Shown here: positions 4,246 through 54,411 of the stretch, in pieces | Position numbering within the stretch: position 1 is the stretch's first letter | How the letters are laid out: each line of letters begins with the position of its first letter | Assembly (NCBI RefSeq): GCF_026319325.1 | Contig: NZ_JAPDMU010000004.1 | Span: 124,001 to 188,000 of the forward strand | Direction of reading: 5' to 3' | DNA: 64,000 nt | Source of the DNA: Methylophaga sp. OBS3 | GTDB taxonomy: Bacteria; Pseudomonadota; Gammaproteobacteria; Nitrosococcales; Methylophagaceae | Made by a program: the position numbers and the translations under genes | The notes under the pieces: model-generated | What the model was told of the DNA's origin: nothing | Database searches by the model: none | The model's input: only the letters and a program-made list of their open reading frames with translations

Positions 4246-4635
4246 TTAACGTTTTGAGAATTGTGGTTTCTTACGTGCTTTATGCAGACCGATTTTCTTA
4301 CGTTCAACGGCACGTGCATCACGTGTAATGAAGCCTGCTTTACGCAGTTCAGTTTTCAATTCACTGTCCAGTTCGACCAATGCACGGCTGATACCGTGAC
4401 GAATGGCACCAGCTTGGCCATTGTTACCACCACCGCGAACAGTGATTTTCAGGTCAACTTTGTCGAGCATTTCAACCAATTCTAATGGTTGGCGTACGAC
4501 CATGCGTGAAGTTTCACGACCAAAGTAATCTTCCAGTGAACGGGTATTGATTGAAATGTTACCAGTGCCTGGTTTCAAGAAAACACGGGCAGTAGAACTT
4601 TTGCGACGGCCGGTTGCGTAATATAAATCTGCCAT
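4246..4635 (-). CDS. rpsI: 30S ribosomal protein S9
   Basis: 129 residues, close to the usual 130. The start reads [20 protein letters not shown] and the end is the very basic tail KKPQFSKR, which reaches the P-site tRNA in the ribosome. The motif [20 protein letters not shown] is characteristic of S9. It follows rplM with an 11-base gap, the standard rplM-rpsI operon, and is followed by a strong terminator. Confidence 0.98.
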
Positions 4636-4646
4636 GACGATATCCG

Positions 4647-5075
4647 TTAAATTTCCAGCATTTGAGGTTGTTGGGCAACGTGAGGGTGCTCACTACCAGC
4701 GTAAACTTTCAGCTTGCTGAACATTGCACGACCCAGTGGGTTTTTCGGCAACATGCCTTTAACCGCAGTTTGGATAACACGCTCAGGTGCTTTATCCAGC
4801 TGTTTTGCCAGAGAGATAGATTTAATACCACCGATATGACCAGTGTGGTGGTAATAGATTTTATCTTGCATCTTGTTACCAGAAACACGCAGTTTCTCAG
4901 CATTGATAACTACGATGTAATCACCGGTATCAACGTGTGGTGTGTAAATCGCTTTATGTTTGCCACGCAGACGGCGGGCAATTTCGGTCGCCATGCGACC
5001 CAGCGTTTTGCCGTTGGCGTCGATGACGAACCAGTCACGACGAACTTCGGCTGGTTTAGCACTAATGGTTTTCAT
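4647..5075 (-). CDS. rplM: 50S ribosomal protein L13
   Basis: 142 residues, exactly the E. coli length, starting [20 protein letters not shown]. The frame extends 13 codons upstream, but the ATG at 5075 is preceded by a GGAG about 11 bases away and matches the family start. The conserved [18 protein letters not shown] and [18 protein letters not shown] motifs are present. L13 is an early-assembling large-subunit protein. It is first gene of the rplM-rpsI unit; the roughly 90 bases between it and uppP must hold its promoter. Confidence 0.98.
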
Positions 5076-5162
5076 TCCGCGGGTTGCTCCTGAAAAAATA
5101 CGCAGGCGGTCCAAATAAAGAGGGAGAATATTACGGATTCAGACTGCCACTGTCAACAGCAT

Positions 5163-5960
5163 TTATAGAAACAGCCAAAGCAATATGCCGCCGAGGATGA
5201 GCCGGTAAATGACAAACGGCCACATGCCAATGCGTTCAAGTAATTTTAGGAACACTACTATACATAAGTAGGCGCTGATTGCCGAGAACAATGCACCGGT
5301 AAATAGTACTGACCAATCCGCTTGTGTTTCAGCGACGATTAATTCGCCGGTTTTTAACATCCCCGCTAAAGTAATTACCGGAATCGCTAATAAAAAAGAA
5401 AAACGTGCAGCAGCTTCGCGCGTTAATCCAAGCATCAGACCTGCGGTCATTGTTACGCCACTGCGAGATGTGCCGGGAATCAGTGCTAAGGCCTGGGCAA
5501 CACCAATAATTAAAATGTCTTGCCAGCGAAGCGTATGTTCATCTCGAACACGTTTACCTTGCCAGTCTGCCCAGCCGAGTAATAAACCAAAGCCAATGGT
5601 TGTTGCGGCAATAACGAGTGGGTCGCGCAAATAAACTTCAATAAAGTCGCCAAAAAGGACACCTGTTAAGCCAACCGGAATGGTGCCAAAAATAATTGCC
5701 CAAGCCAGTCGACTATCACCAACACGCTGGCGTTGGTGTAACGATGCAAACCAATCATAAATTAATGTGCGCAATTGTTTGCGGAAATAGAAAACAATCG
5801 CCGATAAAGTACCAATATGGACTGCAACATCGAAGGCCAAACCTTGATCCTGCCAGTTGGCAATTATGGGCATTAAAATCAGGTGGGCTGAGCTGGAGAT
5901 CGGCAAAAACTCTGTAAGTCCTTGCAAAACAGCAAGAACAAAAATTTGAATAAAATCCAT
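5163..5960 (-). CDS. uppP: Undecaprenyl-diphosphatase UppP (BacA)
   Basis: 265 residues with about eight hydrophobic segments. The two family motifs are visible: GLTEFLPISSSAHL (glutamate 17, serines 22-24, histidine 26) and PGTSRSG at about 163-169 with the phosphate-binding arginine. The enzyme dephosphorylates undecaprenyl pyrophosphate in the inner membrane to recycle the lipid carrier of peptidoglycan and O-antigen, and gives low-level bacitracin resistance. The following intergenic stretch of about 130 bases (5961-6091) separates it from a divergent gene. Confidence 0.95.
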   Translation of the reverse strand: MDFIQIFVLAVLQGLTEFLPISSSAHLILMPIIANWQDQGLAFDVAVHIGTLSAIVFYFRKQLRTLIYDWFASLHQRQRVGDSRLAWAIIFGTIPVGLTGVLFGDFIEVYLRDPLVIAATTIGFGLLLGWADWQGKRVRDEHTLRWQDILIIGVAQALALIPGTSRSGVTMTAGLMLGLTREAAARFSFLLAIPVITLAGMLKTGELIVAETQADWSVLFTGALFSAISAYLCIVVFLKLLERIGMWPFVIYRLILGGILLWLFL

Positions 5961-42629: not shown

Positions 42630-43499
42630 CTAAATAGCCTGCTGCAAACGTTCTGCTGCAGTAAGCGGTTGATGATAAATAATGTGCCTTTGATTTCGGG
42701 CAAATCCTACCAGTAATAAATCTGCTTGTTGTGCCATATCAATGGCAAGCGAGGTTGGTGCTGAAATAGCGACCAAGGCTCCGATACCCGCCTGACAGGT
42801 TTTTTGCACCATTTCATAGCTAGCGCGACTACTCACTAAAACAAAACCTTGGCTAACATCGACCTGCTGGCGTTGCAGGTGACCAATCAGTTTATCGAGT
42901 GCGTTGTGACGCCCAACATCTTCACGGCAAACCAATATTTGACCAGACAAATCACACCATGCGGCTGCATGAGTGGCACCAGTTAATGCGTTGATTGGCT
43001 GTTGGCTTCGCAATGCTGATAAGGCGTGCTCGATGACTTCTGCCGATAAGTCGGGTGCTATGACTTGAGGTACTGGACGAATGGCTTGCTTTAGGGTTTC
43101 TGTTCCACACAGACCACAGCCTGTTCGGCCAACCAAGTTTCGGCGTTGCTTTAATTCAGCAAAGCGTTCTTCATGGATGCGAACACGTAAGGTGATGCCT
43201 TGCTCATTTTGTAAGACATGGACTGACTCTATCTCATCAACGTTTTTAACGATTTCTTCACTTAAGCTAAAACCATAAGCAAAGTCTTCAAGGTCGGATG
43301 GTGATGCCATCATGACTGCATGAGAGACACAGTTATAGACCAGTGCAACCGGTATTTCGGTGGCAATGTCATCAGTCATAACTTCGACAAAGGGCTTATC
43401 GTTGTGGCGAGCGTTAACGATCTTGTTAACACTGACAGCGGGTAAATTTCGCATTACTGAGTTATCAGCCATATTTTCGTGGCGAGTTGGTTTTGCCAT
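42630..43499 (-). CDS. fdhD: Formate dehydrogenase accessory sulfurtransferase FdhD
   Basis: 289 residues from the ATG at 43499, supported by GAG 7 bases upstream; a TTG at 43511 is the alternative. The sulfur-relay cysteines are in GRTGCGLCGTE. Other motifs: ALVYNCVSHAVMMASPSDLEDFAYGF, REDVGRHNALDKLIG and SSRASYEMVQK. FdhD passes sulfur from IscS to the Mo/W-bis-PGD cofactor of formate dehydrogenase, so the cell should carry such an enzyme. It sits one gene group from moaDE/moaC and near the oxyanion region. Confidence 0.95.
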   Translation of the reverse strand: MAKPTRHENMADNSVMRNLPAVSVNKIVNARHNDKPFVEVMTDDIATEIPVALVYNCVSHAVMMASPSDLEDFAYGFSLSEEIVKNVDEIESVHVLQNEQGITLRVRIHEERFAELKQRRNLVGRTGCGLCGTETLKQAIRPVPQVIAPDLSAEVIEHALSALRSQQPINALTGATHAAAWCDLSGQILVCREDVGRHNALDKLIGHLQRQQVDVSQGFVLVSSRASYEMVQKTCQAGIGALVAISAPTSLAIDMAQQADLLLVGFARNQRHIIYHQPLTAAERLQQAI

Positions 43500-43510
43500 T
43501 CTGTTACTCA

Positions 43511-43530
43511 ATATGCATTTAACTGCATAT
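43511..43530 (-). promoter_or_regulatory. Inverted repeat at the fdhD start
   Basis: ATATGCA and TGCATAT are perfect 7-base arms around a 6-base spacer, 11 bases before the fdhD ATG. Possibly an operator or a leader hairpin; it does not fit the ModE-type pattern well. Confidence 0.45.
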
Positions 43531-44085: not shown

Positions 44086-44523
44086 TTATTCATTTCCGTC
44101 CGTATTTTCACTGACCCAGCGACTGCCATCCTGACGTTGTTCTTTTTTCCAGAATGGGGCGTTAAATTTTAATTCCTCAATCAGCCAGTCACAGGCATCT
44201 AATGCCGCTCTGCGATGTGCTGACCAGCAGCCTATTAGTACAATGGCATCACCAGGCTGAATGTCACCGACGCGATGGACAATCAGACAAGATGCTAGCG
44301 GCCAACGTTCACAAGCTCGTTTTTCGAGATCTTGAAGATACTTCTCAGTCATTGCGGGGTAATGTTCTAGCGTCATATGACTGACGTTTTCATTGTCATT
44401 CATATCGCGCATGGTGCCGATAAAACTGGCTGAGGCACCACACTGCCCGACAGGTAAACGCTGATTAAATTCGGTTAACCATTGATAAGGCAGAAAATCG
44501 CAATCCAATATTTGCGTGGCCAT
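44086..44523 (-). CDS. moaE: Molybdopterin synthase catalytic subunit MoaE
   Basis: 145 residues. Conserved MoaE segments GASASFIGTMRD, MTLEHYPAMTEKYL, VHRVGDIQPGDAIVLIGCWSAHRRAALDACDWLIEELKFNAPFWKKE, including the catalytic lysines. With MoaD it converts cyclic pyranopterin monophosphate to molybdopterin. It follows moaD with a 1-base gap. Confidence 0.96.
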   Translation of the reverse strand: MATQILDCDFLPYQWLTEFNQRLPVGQCGASASFIGTMRDMNDNENVSHMTLEHYPAMTEKYLQDLEKRACERWPLASCLIVHRVGDIQPGDAIVLIGCWSAHRRAALDACDWLIEELKFNAPFWKKEQRQDGSRWVSENTDGNE

Positions 44524-44524
44524 A

Positions 44525-44752
44525 TTATCCTCCGGTCACCGGTGGAAAAAAGGCAACTTCGTCACCGTCTGAAACACTCGTATCTAAGGTAGCGTAGTCG
44601 AGGTTGACCGCAACCAGTATTCGCTCTGGTAAGGCTTCTCCCGACGTTGCTTTTTGCCATACTTCGGCCACAGTTGTGACGTCTGAGACTTCTGTTTCAG
44701 CAAGGTTAAGTTGTTCGCGTAAACTGGCAAAAAATTTGACTTGAATAGACAT
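44525..44752 (-). CDS. moaD: Molybdopterin synthase sulfur carrier subunit MoaD
   Basis: 75 residues of ubiquitin-like fold, ending in the FFPPVTGG tail whose terminal glycine carries the thiocarboxylate. Start MSIQVKFFASLREQLNL is typical. First gene of the moaD-moaE-MAPEG unit; divergent from moaC with a 45-base gap. Confidence 0.95.
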   Translation of the reverse strand: MSIQVKFFASLREQLNLAETEVSDVTTVAEVWQKATSGEALPERILVAVNLDYATLDTSVSDGDEVAFFPPVTGG

Positions 44753-44797: not shown

Positions 44798-45280
44798 ATG
44801 TCGGAATTAACGCATTTTAATCAAGCCGGTGAAGCTCATATGGTTGATGTTGGCGCAAAGGATATTACTCAGCGCCGAGCAATAGCTACGGGGCAAATTA
44901 AGATGTTACCCGACACCTTAGCATTAATTACCCAAGGCAATCATAAGAAAGGTGATGTGTTGGGTATCGCTCGAATTGCAGGCATCATGGCTGCGAAAAA
45001 GACCAGTGATTTAATTCCGTTATGTCATCCATTGGCATTAACTAAAGTCAGTGTCGACTTTGAGATTGATGCGCAAAATCATGCTGTGAAATGTCTGGCA
45101 ACCGTGGCAACGGCTGGGCAAACGGGGGTTGAGATGGAAGCCTTGACTGCAGTACAAGTGAGTTTATTGACGATTTACGATATGTGTAAAGCGGTCGATC
45201 GAGGCATGGTCATGACAGATATTCAATTGCACGAAAAGGCCGGTGGTAAATCAGGCCTTTGGCAGCGCCACCCCTCCTAA
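44798..45280 (+). CDS. moaC: Cyclic pyranopterin monophosphate synthase MoaC
   Basis: 160 residues. Motifs: [40 protein letters not shown] (active-site histidine), [13 protein letters not shown] and [11 protein letters not shown], ending HEKAGGKSG. It makes cyclic pyranopterin monophosphate after MoaA; moaA is not in this window. Divergent from moaDE. Confidence 0.97.
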
Positions 45281-45369: not shown

Positions 45370-46785
45370 ATGAGTGCACTAAAAAGACTGGCGATGGTGA
45401 TATTGATCGGCATGGCGAGTTTGCCTGCTTCAGCATCAGAGTTAAAACTGCTGGTGGACATGCTCTATGAAAATGGCATGGTCAGTGATGAGCAGTACCA
45501 AAAATTACTGTCTGAACTTAATCAAACTAAGCAACAGCAAACTGCTGAAGTCGAATCATTAAAAGCGGAATTGTCTGAAGTCAGACAACAAGCAGCCGAT
45601 AGTCAGGCAGAACTGGCGCAGCTTAAACAGCAAGCTGCAACAGACCAGCAAACATTAGCCGAAGTAAAACAACAAGCTGAGCGGGGCGTAGAGGTCACAA
45701 CACGAGGCGGTATTCAGGTAAAAAGTCGTGATGGTATGTTTGAAACCCGTCTTCGAGGTCGTTTGATGGTCGATATGGCCAACTATACGGGCAACCCTGA
45801 TATCGATGATGGTGCCAGAATTCGTCGCGCGCGACTTGCATGGACAGGCCGTATTTATCGTGATTGGGGCTTTCAGCTTGATTATGACTTTGCGGATGGT
45901 GGCAAGATCCGAGATTCTTATGTTTCTTATTTAGGCTGGGATAAAGCACGGTTTCGTGTCGGTTTGATGGAGATCCCATTAGGGCTGCAATACCGCTCTA
46001 GTTCAAGCGACTCTCAGTTAATAGAACGTAGTTTACTCGGTGCATTTGGTGGTGATCGTTATATCGGCTTTATGGGCGATACCAAGCGTCAACATTGGAG
46101 TTTTGCTGCCGGCGTATTTGGTGATGATGAGAATGAGCAATCTGATGCCAATGGTGAAGGTTGGGGCTATGGTGGCCGTTTAACGCTGGCACCTATCAAT
46201 GCTGATAGACGTTTACTACATTTTGGTTTGGCATCGTTTTATCGTGAATTAAACGATGATGCGACGCTACGTTTTCGTGAGCGTCCTGAAGCTAGGGTGA
46301 CCAGTTTTAATATCGTAGATACTGGCATTATTCCAAATGCTGAAACCTTTACACGAACCGGTGTTGAGTGGGCGGCAGTGCGTGGGCGCTGGTCTGCACA
46401 AGCCGAGTATATGCAGACAAATGTCACGAGAGTCGATCAACCTGACGTGACCTTTGCAGGTTGGCATGTACAAAGTGGCTTCTTCCTAACCGATGATTCG
46501 CTGAATTACGATAATGGTGACTTTGATAGTCCAGTGCCGACCAAACATTTTGATGATGGTGGATTGGGTGCATGGGAGTTAGCGGTCCGATATAGCAGTC
46601 TTGATTTGACCGATAGAGATATCTTTGGTGGTGAGATCCAAAGTATGACTTTTGGTGTGAATTGGTATCCGGTACCAATGCTAAGGTTTTCAGCAAATTA
46701 CATCAACGTACTGGATGTCAATGGTGGGCCTAATGATGGACAAACACCACGGATATTTTTGATGCGCAGCCAGTGGGCGTTTTAG
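45370..46785 (+). CDS. OprO/OprP-type porin with an N-terminal coiled coil
   Basis: 471 residues. Signal peptide to about A23 (ASLPASASE), then a short helix (LKLLVDMLYENGMVSDEQYQKLL) and a coiled coil at about 52-105 rich in Q, E and L, which would extend into the periplasm. Then a 16-strand-type barrel (GIQVKSRDGMFETRLRGRLMVDMA; IRRARLAWTGRIYRDWGFQLDYDF) ending in aromatic QWAF. OprO/P porins pass phosphate or polyphosphate. Next to molybdate/tungstate genes an oxyanion role is plausible, but the specificity is not readable. Its stop overlaps the stop of the convergent regulator gene. Confidence 0.87.
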   Translation: MSALKRLAMVILIGMASLPASASELKLLVDMLYENGMVSDEQYQKLLSELNQTKQQQTAEVESLKAELSEVRQQAADSQAELAQLKQQAATDQQTLAEVKQQAERGVEVTTRGGIQVKSRDGMFETRLRGRLMVDMANYTGNPDIDDGARIRRARLAWTGRIYRDWGFQLDYDFADGGKIRDSYVSYLGWDKARFRVGLMEIPLGLQYRSSSSDSQLIERSLLGAFGGDRYIGFMGDTKRQHWSFAAGVFGDDENEQSDANGEGWGYGGRLTLAPINADRRLLHFGLASFYRELNDDATLRFRERPEARVTSFNIVDTGIIPNAETFTRTGVEWAAVRGRWSAQAEYMQTNVTRVDQPDVTFAGWHVQSGFFLTDDSLNYDNGDFDSPVPTKHFDDGGLGAWELAVRYSSLDLTDRDIFGGEIQSMTFGVNWYPVPMLRFSANYINVLDVNGGPNDGQTPRIFLMRSQWAF

Positions 46786-47861
46786 CGACCTTCAAAAGTA
46801 TCTGCAAATGATACGAATTGACCTGATTGGCTTACATCATAGCCCGGTACATCGGCCTGTGATGTATGCCAATCATCTGATTTGAGAAATGCTAAAATTG
46901 ACTGGATCCGAGGATCCTCAAGGTAACTTTTCGGAATTGCCAAACAATAATGCTCTTCACAAAGTGGCAGAAAATCGAGATTAAATTTAGCCGCTACTGC
47001 CGCAATCCCAAAACCACAATCCGCTACACCACTAGCAACCATTGCCGCCACCGCCATATGGGTAAACTCTTCTTGGTTATAGCCTTGAATATCAGAGCCG
47101 TTTAATTGCTCTGAAAGCAGCATCTGATCAAGCAGTAGCCGAGTTCCAGAGCCACGTTGACGGTTTATAAAACGCACGTCGGGGCGTGTTAAATCAGTCA
47201 TTTTTTGAATGTAGAGCGGATTACCATTGGCAATCATGATCCCTTGTTGCCGTTTTACGAGATAACAAAGTTGTGTCGTTTCTGGATCTATCAATGACAG
47301 ATAATCCGGCGCTAATTGTTTACCGAGAGGGCCGGTTGGAATGTGAAATCCAGCGATATCACATTGTTGTTGCTGGAGTGCCAATAAGCTTTCCAAACTG
47401 CCATGAAAGTGTAGATCAACGGCTATTTGTTGCTGATTTAACTCATCTCTCAAAGCACTCACGGCTAAACCATGACTAGCGAAAACTTTGAGTCTCGCTG
47501 GCGTTTGTGCGGTTCGAAGTTGCTGAATTTGTTGTCTTAACTGTGTTGCCTGATTACTTAATTGTGGCAGTAGTCTTGCCTGCAAGTGTTGATGAGCTTG
47601 CAAGAGATGCTGACCAGCAGGTGCAAGGCGTGTTCCTCTGCCGCGATGTTTTTCGATCAAAGGTAATTGGAATCGCTCTCGCCATTTTTCCATTAAACCC
47701 CAAGCATGTCGGTAGGAGACATCGTTATCGCGGGCAGCACTTTGCAGAGAGCCATGTTTATCAATGGCTGATAGCAGATTTAATAAGAGGGGATCGACTG
47801 GCCAGTTTTCGTTGTTACTTTGAATTTGCCAGTTAAAATCAATATGAAATTCCATTGGCAT
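46782..47861 (-). CDS. ModE-type HTH regulator fused to a periplasmic-binding-protein-like domain
   Basis: 359 residues. The N-terminal winged helix (about 20-85; LLNLLSAIDKHGSLQSAARDNDVSYRHAWGLMEKWRERF, then RGTRLAPAG) is that of ModE/LysR-type molybdate regulators. From about 120 to 345 a PBP-like domain follows (LKVFASHGLAVSALRDEL; HFHGSLESLLALQQQQCDIAGFHIP; FINRQRGSGTRLLLDQ), the kind used by HTH regulators for molybdate/tungstate-related signals instead of the TOBE-type domain of E. coli ModE. Cytoplasmic. A ModE-like site lies 50 bases upstream of its start. A second ATG two codons on is possible. Confidence 0.85.
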   Translation of the reverse strand: MPMEFHIDFNWQIQSNNENWPVDPLLLNLLSAIDKHGSLQSAARDNDVSYRHAWGLMEKWRERFQLPLIEKHRGRGTRLAPAGQHLLQAHQHLQARLLPQLSNQATQLRQQIQQLRTAQTPARLKVFASHGLAVSALRDELNQQQIAVDLHFHGSLESLLALQQQQCDIAGFHIPTGPLGKQLAPDYLSLIDPETTQLCYLVKRQQGIMIANGNPLYIQKMTDLTRPDVRFINRQRGSGTRLLLDQMLLSEQLNGSDIQGYNQEEFTHMAVAAMVASGVADCGFGIAAVAAKFNLDFLPLCEEHYCLAIPKSYLEDPRIQSILAFLKSDDWHTSQADVPGYDVSQSGQFVSFADTFEGR

Positions 47862-47880
47862 ATTAAATCATATATTTAAT
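47862..47880 (-). promoter_or_regulatory. Inverted repeat abutting the regulator start codon
   Basis: ATTAAAT-CATAT-ATTTAAT, perfect 7-base arms, immediately upstream of the regulator ATG. A repressor here would block translation start or transcription; its relation to the ModE-like site at 47911 is unknown, and AT-rich DNA makes such repeats common. Confidence 0.35.
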
Positions 47881-47910
47881 GGTAAGTGGTTATTTTATAT
47901 GGGTATTTAT

Positions 47911-47938
47911 ATCTTTATATATGTTTGTTTATACATAT
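47911..47938 (-). promoter_or_regulatory. ModE-like operator in front of the ModE-type regulator
   Basis: Arms ATCTTTATATA and TTTATACATAT are separated by 6 bases. Against the E. coli ModE site as I recall it (arms ATCGTTATATA and TATATAACGAT, 6-base spacer) the match is 10/11 and 7/11. It lies in the leader of the regulator gene, so autoregulation is likely. Confidence 0.6.
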
Positions 47939-47996
47939 TTATGCGCATAAAACTACATAAATAACTGTTGCTGATGACAATATGATGAAAAAAGAA

Positions 47997-48809
47997 TTAG
48001 GGGTGGTAAAAACCGAATTTTTTTAAACGATGTTGTGCGGATTCGCTATTAAGGTAAGTAGCGAAAGTCTCGGTTATTGTTGGTGCGTCAAAACGCACAA
48101 TAAACCCATAACTTGCGCCAACAGCTAGTGAGGGAGGGGGAAGTACTACTTTTAAATCGGGAAATGTTCGCTGAGCCAAAATACCGTTGGTGCAATAGGT
48201 GAGAAAAATATCAACTTTGTCTTGGTTTAATAACCAGCCGTAGGCATTTTCACCAGCGGGTATTTCAGGACTGTTCGGTGCGCCAGTAAGCATGTTGGCT
48301 TTTTGACTCAATACCTGAAAACTTCCTGGTAACAAATGATCTGCACGTTGAAATAATTTCCAAGCGTAGTCACCACTGGGATCATATTCTGGTGTTGAGG
48401 TGCCAATGCGGGTGTCGTCATCTAACAGTGCCGTTAAAAAATTACGCTTGCTGATAACGGTGTCTGCTTGGGCAATGGCACATAATTGATTTTGAGTAAA
48501 TGAGGTGACATGTTGCCCCCATCTCATGGTTGCTAGTTTTTGAGGATGAGTTAGGTTGGCTGAGATAAAAATATCAGCATCATCACCAGATTCAATCGCT
48601 TCGCGTAACAAACCACTAGGACCAAAGCGGGTGTGAATTGTCACATCATGTTGCTGTTGAAACTCAGCAATTAATTCATTTAAAACAGTTTTTAAACTAC
48701 CCGCAGCGAACACAGTAAATTCATTCGCGCTGACGGTATTGGCTGAAATCATGATGAGTAGGCCTAAGCTGTAGACGATCTTTCTTAACTTGATAAACGG
48801 TCTCATCAT
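47997..48809 (-). CDS. ModA-like molybdate-type substrate-binding protein
   Basis: 270 residues. Signal peptide to about A28, then FTVFAAGSLKTVLNELIAEF, FGPSGLLREAIESGDDADIFISAN, LCAIAQADT and GTSTPEYDPSGDYAWKLFQRA, the pattern of ModA-type (family 1 oxyanion) periplasmic binding proteins. No modB or modC permease/ATPase follows. It is the last gene of the four-gene receptor operon, 10 bases after the di-heme protein. Molybdate, tungstate or a related oxyanion is likely. Confidence 0.83.
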   Translation of the reverse strand: MMRPFIKLRKIVYSLGLLIMISANTVSANEFTVFAAGSLKTVLNELIAEFQQQHDVTIHTRFGPSGLLREAIESGDDADIFISANLTHPQKLATMRWGQHVTSFTQNQLCAIAQADTVISKRNFLTALLDDDTRIGTSTPEYDPSGDYAWKLFQRADHLLPGSFQVLSQKANMLTGAPNSPEIPAGENAYGWLLNQDKVDIFLTYCTNGILAQRTFPDLKVVLPPPSLAVGASYGFIVRFDAPTITETFATYLNSESAQHRLKKFGFYHP

Positions 48810-48819
48810 TTAGTTTACG

Positions 48820-50169
48820 CTATAGTGATTTTAGAAACGTGATTAATGCATCACGATGTTGCTTAGGCATATTAATCACCGCATCTCGACTTTTTTGGGC
48901 TTCACCGCCATGCCATAAAATCGCTTCGAGCAAATTTCTGGCACGTCCATCATGCAAATATCCGACTTCATCCCCAACGGTATCAGCAAGGCCAATCCCC
49001 CATAATGGTGCTGTTCGCCACTCTGTGCCGGTTGCACCATTATCTGGACGATGATCTGCAAGTTGTTCACCCATATCGTGCAATAAAAAATCGCTGTAGG
49101 GTGAAAGTAAACGATTAGCAAAAGCTGCCGGTTTTGCATGAGCGGATGTTTTAATTTGTGGGCGATGACAAGCCGCACAGCCAGCTTCAGAAAAGATCGT
49201 TTTGCCTTTAATGACAGTAGGGTGCGCTGGATCTCGCTGACTTGGAATGGCTAAAAACTGTAGATAAAAATTAACCGCATCAAGTTGCTTTTCAGCTAAT
49301 TCTGGCGCGCCGCCTGACTCAGCTTGCTGGCAATCTGTTTGTTGCGAACTGCAATTTTCGACTGGAAATATCGCTGAGGTTAAACCTAAGTCTTCTTGAA
49401 ACGCACTGGCTGTTTGTTCGGCTAATGACGCAATATTTGCTTTGTAACCAAAGCGTCCAATTTGCGGTTGATGTGTTGCCTCATTAGTTAACCAATTAGC
49501 TCGGCCAGAAATACCATCATTGTTGGCATCATCAGGATCATGCCATTCAAGAATGGCTTGTTCATCAATCGCCTCAATGAGTCCCATACCAACAAGGGCA
49601 GGTCCAATCCGTGCTGAGGTTAATATGTCACCAAACTCGCCATAGCCTGGCTCGACAAGTTTAATCATTGGCTTACGTAAGCTGACGATTTCACCATCAC
49701 TTAAGGTGATATTGGCGTTTTCATAATGTACTTCAGCGCGTCCCTCTGCTGGTACATTTGGAACAGCAAACTCTTGTAATTGACCGCCATAAACAGGATG
49801 CGGCTTAGCATAAAACAGATTATCTGAAGGCGCGCTTAACCTCACTAACATCGCGCGCATTTTCTCATCAGGACCATTAGGTGCGCTGCCACGACCATTG
49901 CCGGGATGGCAGGCTAAACAAGAAATACTGTTGTAGAGAGGGCCAAGGCCATCAATATCATCATCTTGTGATGGCGCAATAACCCACATTTGATTAAACA
50001 GGCTGCGACCAGCGGCAAACTCAATTAATTGGCTTTGCTCTGTCAGTAATGGCATTGGTTGAGCTAATGCTCGACGGTGCGTTGCAGATGTCTCAAGTGC
50101 TATTTCTGCATGACTAAAGCTTACTAATGTGAAGCTCAACATTAGCAAGCTAAATGTTTTCCAAATCAT
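48820..50169 (-). CDS. Di-heme oxidoreductase family protein (DHOR)
   Basis: 449 residues. Signal peptide to about A21, two c-type haem motifs CLACH (about 83-87) and CAACH (about 337-341) and the DHOR pattern: GLGPLYNSISCLACHPGNGRG, HDPDDANNDGISGRANW, GRFGYKANIASL and RTAPLWGIGL..YLHDGRARNLLEAILWHGGEA. It is periplasmic. Family members are di-haem cytochromes, in part linked to thiol oxidation or metal uptake loci; the reaction is unknown. Its start overlaps the upstream binding-protein gene by 4 bases. Confidence 0.88.
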   Translation of the reverse strand: MIWKTFSLLMLSFTLVSFSHAEIALETSATHRRALAQPMPLLTEQSQLIEFAAGRSLFNQMWVIAPSQDDDIDGLGPLYNSISCLACHPGNGRGSAPNGPDEKMRAMLVRLSAPSDNLFYAKPHPVYGGQLQEFAVPNVPAEGRAEVHYENANITLSDGEIVSLRKPMIKLVEPGYGEFGDILTSARIGPALVGMGLIEAIDEQAILEWHDPDDANNDGISGRANWLTNEATHQPQIGRFGYKANIASLAEQTASAFQEDLGLTSAIFPVENCSSQQTDCQQAESGGAPELAEKQLDAVNFYLQFLAIPSQRDPAHPTVIKGKTIFSEAGCAACHRPQIKTSAHAKPAAFANRLLSPYSDFLLHDMGEQLADHRPDNGATGTEWRTAPLWGIGLADTVGDEVGYLHDGRARNLLEAILWHGGEAQKSRDAVINMPKQHRDALITFLKSL

Positions 50170-51446
50170 TGTTTTTGAGAAAGCTTCGCTAATTTAGCCA
50201 ACGCTTGGTCATATTGCTGCTCAAAGATCTGGCTGATCTCTGCTTGATACGCTTCGCAGTTTTGGCGTTTTACATCGTCATCATGACGCTGAGCACAAGC
50301 TAAAACGATTTCATCATCAAGCTTAGGTTCTGAAACCGGCCAGTTGAGTAGCATTTTCTTAATTTCTGCCAATTCCTCGGAGGAGGCTATTGCTTGTAAT
50401 GCATACCATTGCTGCCAAGCATTTTTGAGCTTGTCATGGTGCGCGGTAATCGAAGCATCAAACACCACCGCATTAAATTCACGTCTGCTAAAGCCAAGCG
50501 GATAATCATAATTTGCATGATGGTCACTGCTAAATGGATTTTGCATTGTGGAGGTTGCTTGATAAACACTTGGTCTTATCGGCAACTTACGGACATCTGG
50601 GTGAAGTAATGCTTTTTGGCCTGATTCAGATACGAGAAATGCAGCAAAAGTATTGGCGGCTTCAGTTTGTTTTGTTCTCGACAAAATAGCGACATGGGCA
50701 GGATTAAATGCTGTTTTTTCAGGATAGATAAAGCGACCCTCAACCCCATTAGCGATACTCGTTGCTGCAAAGAAATCCATTGTAAAAGCGATTTTGGCGA
50801 CGCCTGTCGATACTGCTTCAGTAGTAAACATCGTGCCACGACCCATCAACTGACTATTGGCGGCAATTTGTTGCCATTGCTGCCAACCAATTTGCCAACC
50901 CTCAGTTTGCAACAGTTGATCGATCAGCATATGGGCAAAATTAACCTCAGAGGGAATAGGTAAAGCAACATGACTTTGCCATTGAGGGTGTTGTAAATCT
51001 TGCCAAGTAGTCGGAACAGCTAGTGAATTTTTACTCAGCGTTTCAGGCTCGAAAAATAGGCCATATCCAGCGATCTCAGTGGCCATAAAATAACCATCTG
51101 CATCGGATATTGAAGCGTTACCAATCTCGTTTGGAAGGCCTGTTTCATCAATATTTAACGGCGTTAATTGATTATCATCTTTGAGGGTGTAAAACACTCT
51201 CGGTGAAGGCAGCCAAATCACATCCACGGCCTCATCTGGCTGATTGGTTAAGGTCATTAACGCATCATGAGGTCGACGCCAAAGGATGTTTAATGAAATA
51301 TCAGGATGCGACTTTTCAAAGGCTTGTTGGATGACGGCCACCACGGGCTGCGGATAGCTCGTTATCACGTTAAGTGTGGAGGCCTGAGCCACCACTGATA
51401 TCAATAATAGGCAGATAAAACCGCCAAGTAGTTTTAGTTGTGTCAT
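50166..51446 (-). CDS. ABC-type periplasmic substrate-binding protein with C-terminal extension
   Basis: 426 residues. Signal peptide to about A22, then LNVITSYPQPVVAVIQQAFEKSHPDISLNILW, VDVIWLPSPRVFYTLKDD, PTTWQDLQHPQWQSHVALPIPSE and AFLVSESGQKALLHPDVRKLPIRPSVY, typical of family 1/8 iron- or thiamine-type binding proteins. A helical C-terminal extension of about 90 residues (from about 335) carries two cysteines. No cognate permease is present. It is second in the receptor operon, overlapping both neighbours. Confidence 0.82.
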   Translation of the reverse strand: MTQLKLLGGFICLLLISVVAQASTLNVITSYPQPVVAVIQQAFEKSHPDISLNILWRRPHDALMTLTNQPDEAVDVIWLPSPRVFYTLKDDNQLTPLNIDETGLPNEIGNASISDADGYFMATEIAGYGLFFEPETLSKNSLAVPTTWQDLQHPQWQSHVALPIPSEVNFAHMLIDQLLQTEGWQIGWQQWQQIAANSQLMGRGTMFTTEAVSTGVAKIAFTMDFFAATSIANGVEGRFIYPEKTAFNPAHVAILSRTKQTEAANTFAAFLVSESGQKALLHPDVRKLPIRPSVYQATSTMQNPFSSDHHANYDYPLGFSRREFNAVVFDASITAHHDKLKNAWQQWYALQAIASSEELAEIKKMLLNWPVSEPKLDDEIVLACAQRHDDDVKRQNCEAYQAEISQIFEQQYDQALAKLAKLSQKQ

Positions 51447-53407
51447 TAGAATTGGTAGCTCAGGTTAGCGTAGTAAGTACGACCTGCTTCTGGAAAGCCT
51501 TCTTGATATTCGTAATTTTTATCAAATAGGTTTTCAACACCAAGTCTTGCTGTCACGCCTTTATCAAATTGGTATTTGGCACGAACACCGGCGATGGTAA
51601 ATGCATCTGCGATTCTGTCACCTTCGGTTGTGGTGTAACGTTTACTCTCATATTGCGCTGTGGCTGAAATGCTCAATGGCTGTGAAATATGCCACGTAGC
51701 GTAGGTAAAGAGTTTATGACTTGGCACGTCGGTAAGTTTGAGATCCGAGCTTTTATTTACACGGTCTAAATAGGTGTAATTACCGCCAAACTCCCATTTA
51801 CCTAGCCAAAAGTCACTGCCAAGCTCAATACCTCTAGCGCTAACTTCACCCACGTTTTGAAATTGGAATATGTTAGGCGTGATGCTGACTTCTTGAATCA
51901 GATCTTTTATATCGCTGTAAAAAAAGGCAACGTCAAAGCGTGCTGTAGTGCCAACACGGTGAACCCAACCGGCCTCGATGGTTTTTGACTGCTCTGCATC
52001 TAAACCTGGGTTCGGCAGTGCGCTTCCAAATCGATATGAATAGCGATCTTTTATGGTCGGGAAGCGTGTTTTCTTCGATAAAGTTAAGCGGGCTTCATTA
52101 CTGTCATCAAGTTCTACAAAGTAACCAATCTGAGGATTCCATGAATCCGCATCATTGGTATCAAATGGTTGCCCAGTGTCAATATCATCGGCTTGTTCAC
52201 TGCGACGTTTATCGTAGCTAATACCAGCAACAAGATATTGTTTATCGGTCAGACGAATAGTGTCTTCGATGGCTAACGAGGTTGTGATGTCCTGAAAGGT
52301 TCTGACGGGTTCATCAAGATCATTTTCTTTATGTTCATCAAACTTATAGTGCGCAGCTAGTTTGACATCATGTCGTCCTAAAGTTTTGCCATATTCAACA
52401 CTGGCGCCATAGGTTTCATCATCATAAAAACTATCAAAGGCATAACCGCGCGTTTGACTTGAGTATGTATCGTCATCAAAGCTAGACAACAAGTTATCAA
52501 AGCTGTCGTAGTAAAAGCGGGTTTTGATATAGCTATCATCGCTTAGTGCAGTATTTGTTAATAAATAAACGCTTTCTTTATCCCAATATGGCCATTGCCA
52601 ATAGCGTGTTCGGACGTCTGGATTATCGCCAGCATAGGGTGGCGTATTTTTCTCACCATCTTGTTTGACATAACCAATTGCATATTCATCAGTCGCGTTG
52701 GGTGTCAGTCCAAGTTTGATATTGATTTTGGTGTCTTTGCGATCTGCATTATTTCGTAAACCATTGTTTTGTGATGCAACCGGATCAAAGTCATCAGAAA
52801 GCGAAAAACTATCTTGTTGGCGGTAACTTGCACCAAACTGCGCATACCAAAGGCCTTGGTTGCTGCCGAGGTTGAGCCAAGTTCTTTTGCCTTCACTGCC
52901 ACTGCGATCACCGACGTTATAACCTGCACCGATTTCACCTTCGAGTTTTTCCGTGGGTTTTCGGCTAACTAGGTTAATGGCACCGCCCATCACGTTTGGG
53001 CCATATAAAACAGAACTAAAGCTTTTTGAAACATCAATGCCAGCTAAGTCGAACGTGGTGAAGCGTCCCAAATCAACATAACCATCATAGGGCACATAGA
53101 TGGGAATGCCATCCACAAAGACCGGTACTTGTCTTAGGTCAAAGCCCCGTAACTGCACGATTTGTTCACTTCGCGCACCGATATTTGTGACAGTGATACC
53201 GGGTATGCGATCTAGTGCTTCGGTTACGTTTTCTCTATTTTCATCACGTAATGTTTCAGCATCTACAGTGGATGAGCCTAAGGCTGGCAAAGGTTTTTCG
53301 GCATTAACCTCAATACGACCTAATTCAAAAGTCGTATCAGCATATGAAAAAGAACTGCTAGCAAGTGCCAACATGAAAGTGGTGTAGCTTAATTTTTTAG
53401 TCATCAT
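51446..53407 (-). CDS. TonB-dependent receptor in the ModE-linked operon
   Basis: 653 residues from ATGATG at 53407; an upstream extension to 53485 would read through the operator and is rejected. Signal peptide MMTKKLSYTTFMLALASSSFSYA, TonB-box-like FELGRIEVNAEKP, plug domain (IPGITVTNIGARSEQIVQLRGFDLRQVPVFVDGIPIY; SSVLYGPNVMGGAINLVSRKP) and a 22-strand-type barrel ending YYANLSYQF. First gene of the receptor-SBP-DHOR-ModA operon. The substrate is unknown; an oxyanion or metal chelate is inferred from neighbours. No cobalamin riboswitch fits in the short leader. Confidence 0.88.
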   Translation of the reverse strand: MMTKKLSYTTFMLALASSSFSYADTTFELGRIEVNAEKPLPALGSSTVDAETLRDENRENVTEALDRIPGITVTNIGARSEQIVQLRGFDLRQVPVFVDGIPIYVPYDGYVDLGRFTTFDLAGIDVSKSFSSVLYGPNVMGGAINLVSRKPTEKLEGEIGAGYNVGDRSGSEGKRTWLNLGSNQGLWYAQFGASYRQQDSFSLSDDFDPVASQNNGLRNNADRKDTKINIKLGLTPNATDEYAIGYVKQDGEKNTPPYAGDNPDVRTRYWQWPYWDKESVYLLTNTALSDDSYIKTRFYYDSFDNLLSSFDDDTYSSQTRGYAFDSFYDDETYGASVEYGKTLGRHDVKLAAHYKFDEHKENDLDEPVRTFQDITTSLAIEDTIRLTDKQYLVAGISYDKRRSEQADDIDTGQPFDTNDADSWNPQIGYFVELDDSNEARLTLSKKTRFPTIKDRYSYRFGSALPNPGLDAEQSKTIEAGWVHRVGTTARFDVAFFYSDIKDLIQEVSITPNIFQFQNVGEVSARGIELGSDFWLGKWEFGGNYTYLDRVNKSSDLKLTDVPSHKLFTYATWHISQPLSISATAQYESKRYTTTEGDRIADAFTIAGVRAKYQFDKGVTARLGVENLFDKNYEYQEGFPEAGRTYYANLSYQF

Positions 53408-53426
53408 TTTATTTTTGCGAGTAGGT

Positions 53427-53454
53427 TTCGATGTATATATTGGTATATTTCGAT
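53427..53454 (-). promoter_or_regulatory. ModE-like operator in front of the TonB-receptor operon
   Basis: Arms TTCGATGTATA and TATATTTCGAT around a 6-base spacer. Against the ModE site recalled from E. coli (ATCGTTATATA, 6 bases, TATATAACGAT) the hand count is 8/11 and 9/11. It ends 19 bases before the receptor ATG, a position that fits repression. Confidence 0.65.
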
Positions 53455-53492
53455 AGGCAGACTTGTTCCTTGATGGAACAAGCAAATTAAAA

Positions 53493-54299
53493 TTATTCTT
53501 TAGGGGGTAATGAGGTGAAAAATAATTGCTGACCGTTAACGGTGAAGTTATCGATTAACTTCTTGCCAGCTTCACTGGTCATAAAATCCATATAAGCTTT
53601 GGCTAAGGTCACATTGGCATGTGGATGCTTTTCGGGATTAACAGCCATAATATGGTATGGATTTGACAGACTCGCACCGCCTTCAAAGACGAGTTTGAGC
53701 TGCATTTTGTCTTCATAAGCGATTTTGGTGCCACGGTCGGTTAATGCATAACCTGACATTTCATCTGCGATCTTAAGCACTGCGCCCATGCCTTGGCCTG
53801 CTGGGACATACCAGCTTCCTGACGGACTAATGCCTGCAGCTTCCCATAATTGCATTTCTTTTTTATGGGTACCAGAGTCATCACCACGAGACACGAAGCG
53901 AATTTGGCTGTTGGCAATTTTTTGCATGGCTTCGCTGATGGTTTTGGCGGTTTTAACACCTGCGGGATCGGCATCAGGACCTACTAATACAAAGTCGTTG
54001 TACATGACATATTGGCGGTCAATAAAGGCGCCTTTTTCGACATATTCAAGTTCTGCTTTAGGGGCATGAACAAGGGCAACATCAACGTCGCCATTATCGC
54101 CAAGCTGTAATGCTTGTCCTGTTCCCACAGCGATAACAGCAACTTTAATATCCGTTGCCTCTGTGAATGCGGTATTAAGTTCTTTCAATAAACCGGTATT
54201 GTCTGTGCTGGTGGTGGTGGATAAGCGGAGTAGGGTTTCCGCCTGTACCGGTAATGCAATTAATAAGCTTAAAACGAGTAAATGGCGAAGTTTTGTCAT
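53493..54299 (-). CDS. TupA-like tungstate-binding periplasmic protein
   Basis: 268 residues from the ATG at 54299; an 11-codon longer frame gives a poorer signal peptide. Signal peptide to about A20, then LLRLSTTTSTDNTGLLKELN, the TTTS motif of TupA/WtpA-like tungstate binders, VAVGTGQALQLGDNGDVDVALVHAP, and RFVSRGDDSGTHKKE. TupA proteins bind tungstate very tightly. No TupB/TupC permease or ATPase is adjacent. It lies on the same strand upstream of the receptor operon, with its own weak ModE-like repeat. Confidence 0.85.
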   Translation of the reverse strand: MTKLRHLLVLSLLIALPVQAETLLRLSTTTSTDNTGLLKELNTAFTEATDIKVAVIAVGTGQALQLGDNGDVDVALVHAPKAELEYVEKGAFIDRQYVMYNDFVLVGPDADPAGVKTAKTISEAMQKIANSQIRFVSRGDDSGTHKKEMQLWEAAGISPSGSWYVPAGQGMGAVLKIADEMSGYALTDRGTKIAYEDKMQLKLVFEGGASLSNPYHIMAVNPEKHPHANVTLAKAYMDFMTSEAGKKLIDNFTVNGQQLFFTSLPPKE

Positions 54300-54329
54300 G
54301 ATGTCATCTTCAGTTGAGATGTGAAATTT

Positions 54330-54353
54330 CAATATATGTAACTATATATATTG
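54330..54353 (-). promoter_or_regulatory. Weak ModE-like inverted repeat in front of the TupA-like gene
   Basis: CAATATATG...TATATATTG at 54330-54353 includes two TATATA-like cores about 6 bases apart. It lacks the CG of the outer arms and matches about 13 of 22 recalled positions. AT-rich context lowers the value of the match. Confidence 0.35.
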
Positions 54354-54411
54354 GTAGATGTAAATTTTTTGATAGTAAATTAACAATGCCTTGTTAGCTA
54401 TTGATGAACTG

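Follow-up and report, generated by a model that had tools for sequence, protein, structure and literature searches.

The DNA analysed here, hereafter the window, is a stretch of 64,000 nucleotides from the marine, methanol-consuming bacterium Methylophaga sp. OBS3 (contig NZ_JAPDMU010000004.1, positions 124,001 to 188,000; the source assembly contains 2.30 Mb in 8 contigs and is 94.7% complete). It possesses a cassette of genes coding for a TonB-dependent receptor, a periplasmic substrate-binding protein (SBP) of the SBP_bac_6 type (SBP6), a di-haem DHOR protein and a ModA-like SBP, situated between the genes of a ModE-type regulator and a TupA-like tungstate-binding protein. It is quite probable that this arrangement represents a molybdenum/tungsten (Mo/W) acquisition module, that is, an outer-membrane route driven by TonB and controlled by ModE, which takes in molybdate/tungstate or a chelate of it and feeds the TupBC/ModBC permeases. 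The reading is drawn from sequence, namely from the genes, the ModE-like sites, the recurrence in unrelated genomes, the presence or absence of the cassette among Methylophaga genomes and the co-occurrence of TupA with a formate dehydrogenase (FDH) locus. The features of the cassette and its surroundings are as follows.

53493-54332, minus strand: TupA-like tungstate-binding protein (tupA), likely ATG at 54299
51446-53407, minus strand: TonB-dependent receptor, member of the ModE-linked family; PF07715 plug and PF00593 barrel, both above cut-off
50166-51446, minus strand: SBP6, with no permease of its own in the cassette
48820-50169, minus strand: DHOR di-haem protein (PF06537, 1.6e-89; two CxxCH)
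47997-48809, minus strand: ModA-like periplasmic binding protein, with no permease of its own in the cassette
46782-47861, minus strand: regulator with a ModE-type helix-turn-helix (HTH; PF00126) and a PBP_like domain (PF12727)
53427-53454: ModE-like operator, 17/20, ending 19 bases before the likely ATG of the receptor gene
47899-47938: two overlapping ModE-like sites, 15/20 (47899) and 16/20 (47911), between modA and the regulator gene, upstream of the latter
54328-54355: ModE-like site, 15/20, upstream of the likely ATG of tupA

The cassette and its ModE-like sites

The likely start of the receptor gene is the ATG at 53407, the mechanical open reading frame (ORF) extending further to a TTG at 53485. 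The receptor and SBP6 genes overlap by 1 base and the SBP6 and DHOR genes by 4 bases, with 10 bases left before modA, so these four genes are likely to share one transcript. The tupA gene lies upstream of this operon with a ModE-like site of its own, and no ATP-binding cassette (ABC) permease genes were found in the cassette.

The sites were scored out of 20 against the pattern ATCGNTATATA-N6-TATATANCGAT, the E. coli ModE consensus given in PMC545781. The preliminary description of the window, made from its letters, had pointed to three ModE-like inverted repeats, and the four best places in the 64 kb, namely 53427 (17), 47911 (16), and 47899 and 54328 (15 each), lie in these three regions; in the two weaker ones the core matches better than the flanks. 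Four places score at least 15, two at least 16 and one at least 17, against a first-order Markov expectation per 64 kb (40 simulations) of 0.35, 0.075 and 0.0, respectively, and 100 shuffles gave zero sites of 17/20 or more. The 17/20 site at the receptor thus qualifies by sequence as a putative operator of a ModE regulon, and it is the only site of at least 17/20 found in the 2.3-Mb assembly (standard spacing, up to 3 mismatches). Across the 24 Methylophaga genomes there are 11 distinct sites of this score, and the backward pattern gives 2. Nine of these 11 are at genes with a visible link: four at tupA (including those at equal-scoring tupA copies on two contigs of one genome, G010), one at the cassette receptor, three at a second ModE-linked receptor operon and one at modA (in G019). 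The other two (G010:C2 and G015:C2) are in or at genes of no visible link.

The gene assignments of the preliminary description held in domain and model scans. The receptor has both the plug and the barrel domain of TonB-dependent receptors, and the DHOR protein contains PF06537 with two CxxCH motifs invariant across six aligned orthologues, its nearest named relatives belonging to Methylophaga sp. UBA3192, UBA2689 and M. lonarensis. The ModA-like protein exceeds the ModA equivalog cut-offs (NF002917, 280.5 bits with a cut-off of 264; TIGR01256, 62.9 with a cut-off of 62.5), and its top-scoring solved chains are ModAs. The TupA-like protein reaches 246.7 bits to NF041772, below the TupA equivalog cut-off of 400, with the "periplasmic tungstate-binding protein" 3lr1 as the closest solved chain (2.5e-74). 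The regulator is not a full-length E. coli-type ModE (46.1 bits to TIGR00637, under the cut-off of 98.5), as it contains no TOBE domain and has the PBP_like effector domain instead; its relatives, with 49-55% identity, are found near tupA/moa in other Methylophaga.

Family receptors beyond Methylophaga and their comparison with controls

A family profile (A5) was built from seven receptors, four of them from Methylophaga and three from loci picked via SBP6 (L168, L169 and L177; the tup genes of L169 were known before its entry into the profile). At E <= 1e-100 it matches at least 7/369 genomes of the class and at least 9/398 of the phylum, with the Methylophaga sp. OBS3 genome in both; these are lower bounds, since at most three best candidates per genome were scored. 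Outside Methylophaga 13 loci were collected, representing twelve distinct genomes and one Azospirillum plasmid.

Several of these loci join the receptor to Mo/W genes directly. In L169, tupABC, the receptor and SBP6 form one stretch; modE is located beside the receptor in L197 and L200, and together with modABC in L201; modD lies inside the operon of L205, and L196 is a two-receptor locus with modB, modD and mop 7-9 kb away. The partners of the receptor are of two kinds, which in ORF lists and blastp were not seen together in one locus: SBP6 and DHOR (L168, L177, L202, L204 and all six Methylophaga) or a Peripla_BP_2-type binding protein with type-II ABC genes (L197, L198, L199, L203 and L205; the binding proteins were scanned in all five loci and the FecCD domain in L198). 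The exact gene set with the di-haem protein, which the preliminary description had not known as one system, is one variant of a wider receptor family in which the di-haem protein is optional.

For comparison, 20 other TonB receptors were taken from the same 12 genomes, by hand, as about every seventh row of the PF00593 matches listed; they fall in 7 of the 12 genomes, and two of them (L210 and L212) are near-copies. Genes of the tup, mod, modE, modD and mop kinds in the fetched stretch (E <= 1e-5) were counted as Mo/W markers. Such markers accompany 7/13 family loci (6 clear), compared to 1/20 controls (Fisher p 0.003, or 0.008 with 6), with L199 counting weakly through a 26% TupA-like match and L222 (TOBE/ModE) being the one control; without the three profile loci the count is 6/10 (5 clear), with p 0.002 (0.009).

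The ModE-like sites separate the two sets in the same way. A site of at least 14/20 lies within -350 to +150 of the receptor start in 7/13 family loci and in 0/20 controls, where the largest score is 11 (p 4e-4), or in 6/10 without the profile loci (p 4e-4). With arm spacings of 5-8 allowed, the best site of the whole fetched stretch (12-19.5 kb) is located no more than 150 bases upstream of the receptor in 8/13 loci and in 0/20 controls, the nearest control site being 485 bases away (p 9e-5), and in three more loci (L177, L204 and L205) it precedes the first gene of the receptor's operon. Locus maxima of the family also exceed those of the controls overall (p 2e-4) and at a score of at least 15 (9/13 and 2/20, p 7e-4). 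A looser criterion based on operon starts offers no fair way of scoring the controls and was therefore given up as a statistic. Taken together, these independent loci argue in sequence for the Mo/W receptor under ModE-type control that the preliminary description had proposed. It had also named homologous loci without the ModE-type regulator or Mo genes as a finding that would speak against it, and this was only partly borne out: L168, L177, L198, L202, L203 and L204 have no marker in the fetched stretch, but in each of the six a ModE-like site stands either at the receptor or where its operon begins (for L202, p 0.066, not beyond simulation).

In a tree, the 19 family receptors group together (100/99) apart from the 20 controls, which is expected because of how they were chosen. 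The independent point of the tree is that, in the sample of rows used, the first to join the family (99/97) is a second group of Methylophaga receptors (TBDR2), which is 23% identical to the family and itself has ModE genes beside it.

SBP6 and DHOR were also followed on their own. With SBP6 as the anchor, 10/369 class genomes were found at E <= 1e-25; of the nine besides Methylophaga sp. OBS3, two (G300 and G392) pair SBP6 with a receptor in the fetched stretch, and in the other seven no receptor was found there, three of them having SBP6 adjoining ABC-like genes. SBP6 also matches 57 plasmid records, six of which were examined: p4 of Azospirillum argentinense pairs it with DHOR and the receptor, and the other five show iron-type ABC genes. 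DHOR was rejected as a metal marker, and it is uninformative on the metal when taken alone because 77 of the best 80 of 586 DHOR loci have no TupA, SBP6 (one 38-bit match in L031 aside) or family receptor nearby; stray matches include a ModA-like protein in L024 (28%, 76 bits) and other receptors in L023 and L050.

Some further genes were observed in the family loci. DUF2478 (PF10649) genes lie between the receptor and the type-II ABC genes at L197:10402-11049 and L203:7988-8563, with a gene similar by eye at L199:11309-11857. In L202 the receptor-SBP6-DHOR genes are followed by a SulP/STAS anion transporter gene (4307-5950), and the operon of L205, at whose start an 18/20 ModE-like site lies, contains at 11121-12775 genes coding for a methyltransferase and for ModD (TIGR01334, 389.6 bits).

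Distribution in Methylophaga, permeases and formate dehydrogenases

SBP6 is present in 6/24 Methylophaga genomes searched, and in all six the receptor, SBP6 and DHOR genes stand together, with modA next to them in 5/6. A ModE-like site of at least 14/20 is found at the receptor start in 5/6, the sixth scoring 13. Nine further tupA neighbourhoods that were fetched contain the same block (moaC and/or moaE, OprO/P and DUF2333) without the cassette, which suggests that the cassette was inserted beside tupA in an existing block or was repeatedly lost. It also appears independent of TupA, since in G020, which has no TupA match, it is located beside a ModE-HTH gene with a 16/20 site.

Close TupA relatives occur in 15/24 genomes of the genus. 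The genome of Methylophaga sp. OBS3 possesses a canonical modABC on contig 6 (modB, 230 bits to TIGR02141, over the cut-off; ModA, 121 bits to TIGR01256), as well as adjacent TupB-like and TupC-like genes on contig 8 (183.4 bits with a cut-off of 320 and 148.9 with a cut-off of 400), flanked by genes that by eye resemble metF and rpoN; tupA is on this contig too, at a distance of about 155 kb. Matches of the TupB kind, scoring 91-102 bits to the ModB model, are present in 13/15 genomes with TupA and in 0/9 others, their context having been viewed in three genomes. The same distribution, 13/15 and 0/9 (p 4e-5), is shown by a pair of PF00384 genes that share a contig and are separated by 7.1-7.3 kb, counted from the match table with the context viewed in G000 (the genome of the window) and G009. 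The pair belongs to an FDH locus (L234:6271-15812) containing a twin-arginine FDH and a tungsten-type (7vw6-like) FDH, whose 933-aa alpha subunit in Methylophaga sp. OBS3 scores 1265 bits to 7vw6/8j83, the next kind of chain scoring 594. These two chains were deposited as the alpha subunit of a tungsten-containing FDH, and we take them to be FDH1 of M. extorquens. That enzyme (MeFDH1) is described, in the part of PMC13197769 drawn on here, as W-dependent and as accompanied by a moeA1-mobB-tupBCA cluster. TupA thus co-occurs at the sequence level with a tungsten-type FDH1 locus within the genus, and the Methylophaga FDHs of this kind presumably use W. In G020, which lacks TupA, an fdhD gene adjoins one coding for an FDH alpha subunit of 958 aa.

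The neighbouring genes in the window, which had also been named correctly in the preliminary description, are:

45370-46785, plus strand: OprO/P-type porin, belonging to the older tupA-moa block
44798-45280, plus strand: moaC, named by eye, conserved neighbour in the genus
44525-44752, minus strand: moaD, from its length and GG terminus
44086-44523, minus strand: moaE, named by eye, conserved neighbour in the genus
42630-43511, minus strand: fdhD

Tandem OprO/P-type porin genes beside moaC were observed in several Methylophaga genomes (L001, L002, L147 and L148), and in M. lonarensis tupA is represented by two overlapping frames in a draft assembly (L003:3925-4721, or G003:C15:44742-45532), the pieces of which were compared separately and unmended. 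Searches of the window with Rfam gave zero matches at the gathering threshold, and the promoter scan was uninformative (13 in the window and 16.9 in shuffles; terminators, 11 and 7.8). Against PHROGs, the receptor and SBP6 match families without assigned function and DHOR has no match.

A second ModE-linked operon lies outside the window on the same contig (L146:256-4902, or G000:C8:109.2-113.9 kb), with counterparts in L238, L240 and L242. It consists of a short ModE-HTH gene, a gene coding for an unknown protein of about 190 aa and a different TonB receptor gene, carries a ModE-like site of 16-17/20, and in L146 and L242 also includes a TupA-like SBP. One of its proteins weakly matches methanogenesis marker protein 11 (TIGR03280, 44.7 bits, below the cut-off).

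Proposed route, rival explanations and known systems

When Mo/W is plentiful, ModE-type proteins would occupy the operators at tupA, the receptor operon and the regulator gene and repress them; under scarcity this repression would be lifted. The receptor would then actively move molybdate/tungstate, more likely in chelated than in free form, into the periplasm, where SBP6, the ModA-like protein and TupA would catch the oxyanion, perhaps with the help of DHOR in stripping it from the carrier. The binding proteins would pass it to permeases encoded elsewhere (TupBC, ModBC), and the metal would feed FdhD-dependent formate dehydrogenases, including the tungsten-type FDH1. We infer what the substrate is and that it is chelated, the choice between Mo and W, that permeases are shared, which way the regulation runs and any role of DHOR. 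As SBP6 with DHOR and the type-II ABC genes were not seen in one locus, the former pair may strip the metal where no importer of the whole chelate exists. A broader proposal, which we put forward only tentatively, is that ModE-repressed receptors of this family are a dedicated entry for Mo/W chelates (molybdo-/tungstophores) in Gamma- and Alphaproteobacteria with two designs, one passing the chelate to a type-II ABC importer and the other using SBP6 and DHOR to strip it by redox chemistry in the periplasm, so that only the oxyanion reaches TupBC/ModBC.

A number of observations weigh against the acquisition module. L169 has no ModE-like site above chance (p 0.93) despite its tupABC, the best site of L196 lies at the second receptor gene, the site of L202 is not beyond simulation, and neither are the locus-level sites of L140 and L142 within the genus (p 0.08). 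Locus maxima of at least 16 do not separate the family clearly (5/13 and 2/20, p 0.066); one of the two controls (L206) has its 16/20 site inside a gene, and the other (L213) has it before a run of same-strand genes ending, after a 425-base gap, in the receptor. The spacing range was widened after L177, L199 and L204 had been seen, with controls treated alike except for operon starts, and the operon-start criterion, on which 3 of 11 loci depend, has no fair control count. Three of the loci under test themselves supplied the queries for ModE, ModD and Mop, and L205 counts through its own ModD query. In the genome of Methylophaga sp. OBS3 no site of at least 14/20 precedes modABC, tupBC or the FDH genes. 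The top curated models of the receptor are haem, siderophore and B12 receptors, SBP6 has its top solved matches in a pyridoxal-phosphate-binding protein and in binding proteins of the Fe3+ type, its more distant relatives adjoin iron-type ABC genes, and the AlphaFold models were too poor to use (pLDDT 33.5 for the receptor and 52.6 for SBP6).

The haem and siderophore receptor models and the Fe3+-binding relatives of SBP6 would suit a receptor that imports a ferric, catecholate-type siderophore, with iron as the main cargo and ModE control as cross-talk, because such chelators also bind molybdate. This unlikely alternative gains from the resemblance of the type-II ABC partners to siderophore/B12 systems, from the wide occurrence of DHOR elsewhere and from those TonB receptors of Azotobacter that are induced when Mo and V are absent and that are annotated as siderophore receptors in the part of PMC9542535 drawn on here. 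It has to face the ModE-like sites and the tup/mod/modD/mop neighbours, which set the family apart from the other receptors of the same genomes, and the tupABC-receptor-SBP6 stretch of L169. Less probable still is a cassette for another oxyanion or an organophosphate (vanadate, phosphate or a sugar phosphate) for which molybdate would be no more than a regulatory cue: the OprO/P porin adjoins the cassette and SBP6 has a pyridoxal-phosphate-binding relative, but the porin goes with the older tupA-moa block, which is also found where the cassette is missing, and the ModA-like and TupA-like SBPs with the tupABC/modABC neighbours point to group-6 oxyanions. That an unrelated uptake cassette was inserted by chance beside the Mo genes of Methylophaga, as its absence from 9/14 tupA neighbourhoods viewed (the window's included) might suggest, is very improbable and largely excluded by the control comparison, given that the G020 cassette stands elsewhere, again beside a ModE gene with its 16/20 site, and the link is repeated in other lineages.

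The usual view is that molybdate and tungstate pass the outer membrane by way of porins, and Mo-repressible outer-membrane proteins were reportedly observed in Azotobacter in the 1980s. The proposed module resembles TupABC, which in Methylorubrum extorquens goes with W-FDH1, in its TupA-like SBP, the TupB/TupC-like genes of the genome and the W-type FDH1 locus; unlike there, tupA in the window adjoins a TonB receptor cassette and lies apart from tupBC, and ABC importers stop at the inner membrane. It shares with the ModE regulon and ModABC the ModE-type HTH, the ModE-like operators and the ModA-like SBP, but its regulator has PBP_like instead of TOBE and its target is an outer-membrane receptor. 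The type-II molybdate/tungstate importer MolABC of Haemophilus belongs to the same class as the ABC and Peripla_BP_2 partners of five family receptors, whereas the cassette of the window has SBP6 and DHOR; no receptor partner is named for MolABC in the portion of PMC4031551 drawn on. Zur-regulated zinc receptors and the lanthanide receptor LutH, as far as the sources used describe them, share the design of a scarce metal with a TonB receptor, the metal here being Mo/W and the regulator ModE. The VnfA1-dependent Azotobacter receptors are similar in their ABC genes and their tie to metal limitation, including that of Mo, but according to the same portion of PMC9542535 they are driven by the activator VnfA1, called siderophore receptors and active only without Mo and V. 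DHOR proteins elsewhere have in common the PF06537 domain with two c-haem motifs.

Among the matches listed in a search of titles and abstract beginnings in the open-access literature, no TonB receptor for molybdate/tungstate was described, and the stems molybd, tungst, oxyanion and vanad are absent from the main text of a 2024 review of TonB-dependent substrates (PMC11658791). An outer-membrane door of this kind for Mo/W is therefore probably new within the literature searched. If the reading is correct, the ModE-controlled receptor family would extend TonB-dependent transport to a further class of substrates, and molybdophores, named as a known metallophore class in the part of PMC11317620 drawn on, would gain a candidate receptor. 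It would also explain how Mo- and W-dependent formate dehydrogenases are loaded under metal scarcity in marine and methylotrophic bacteria.

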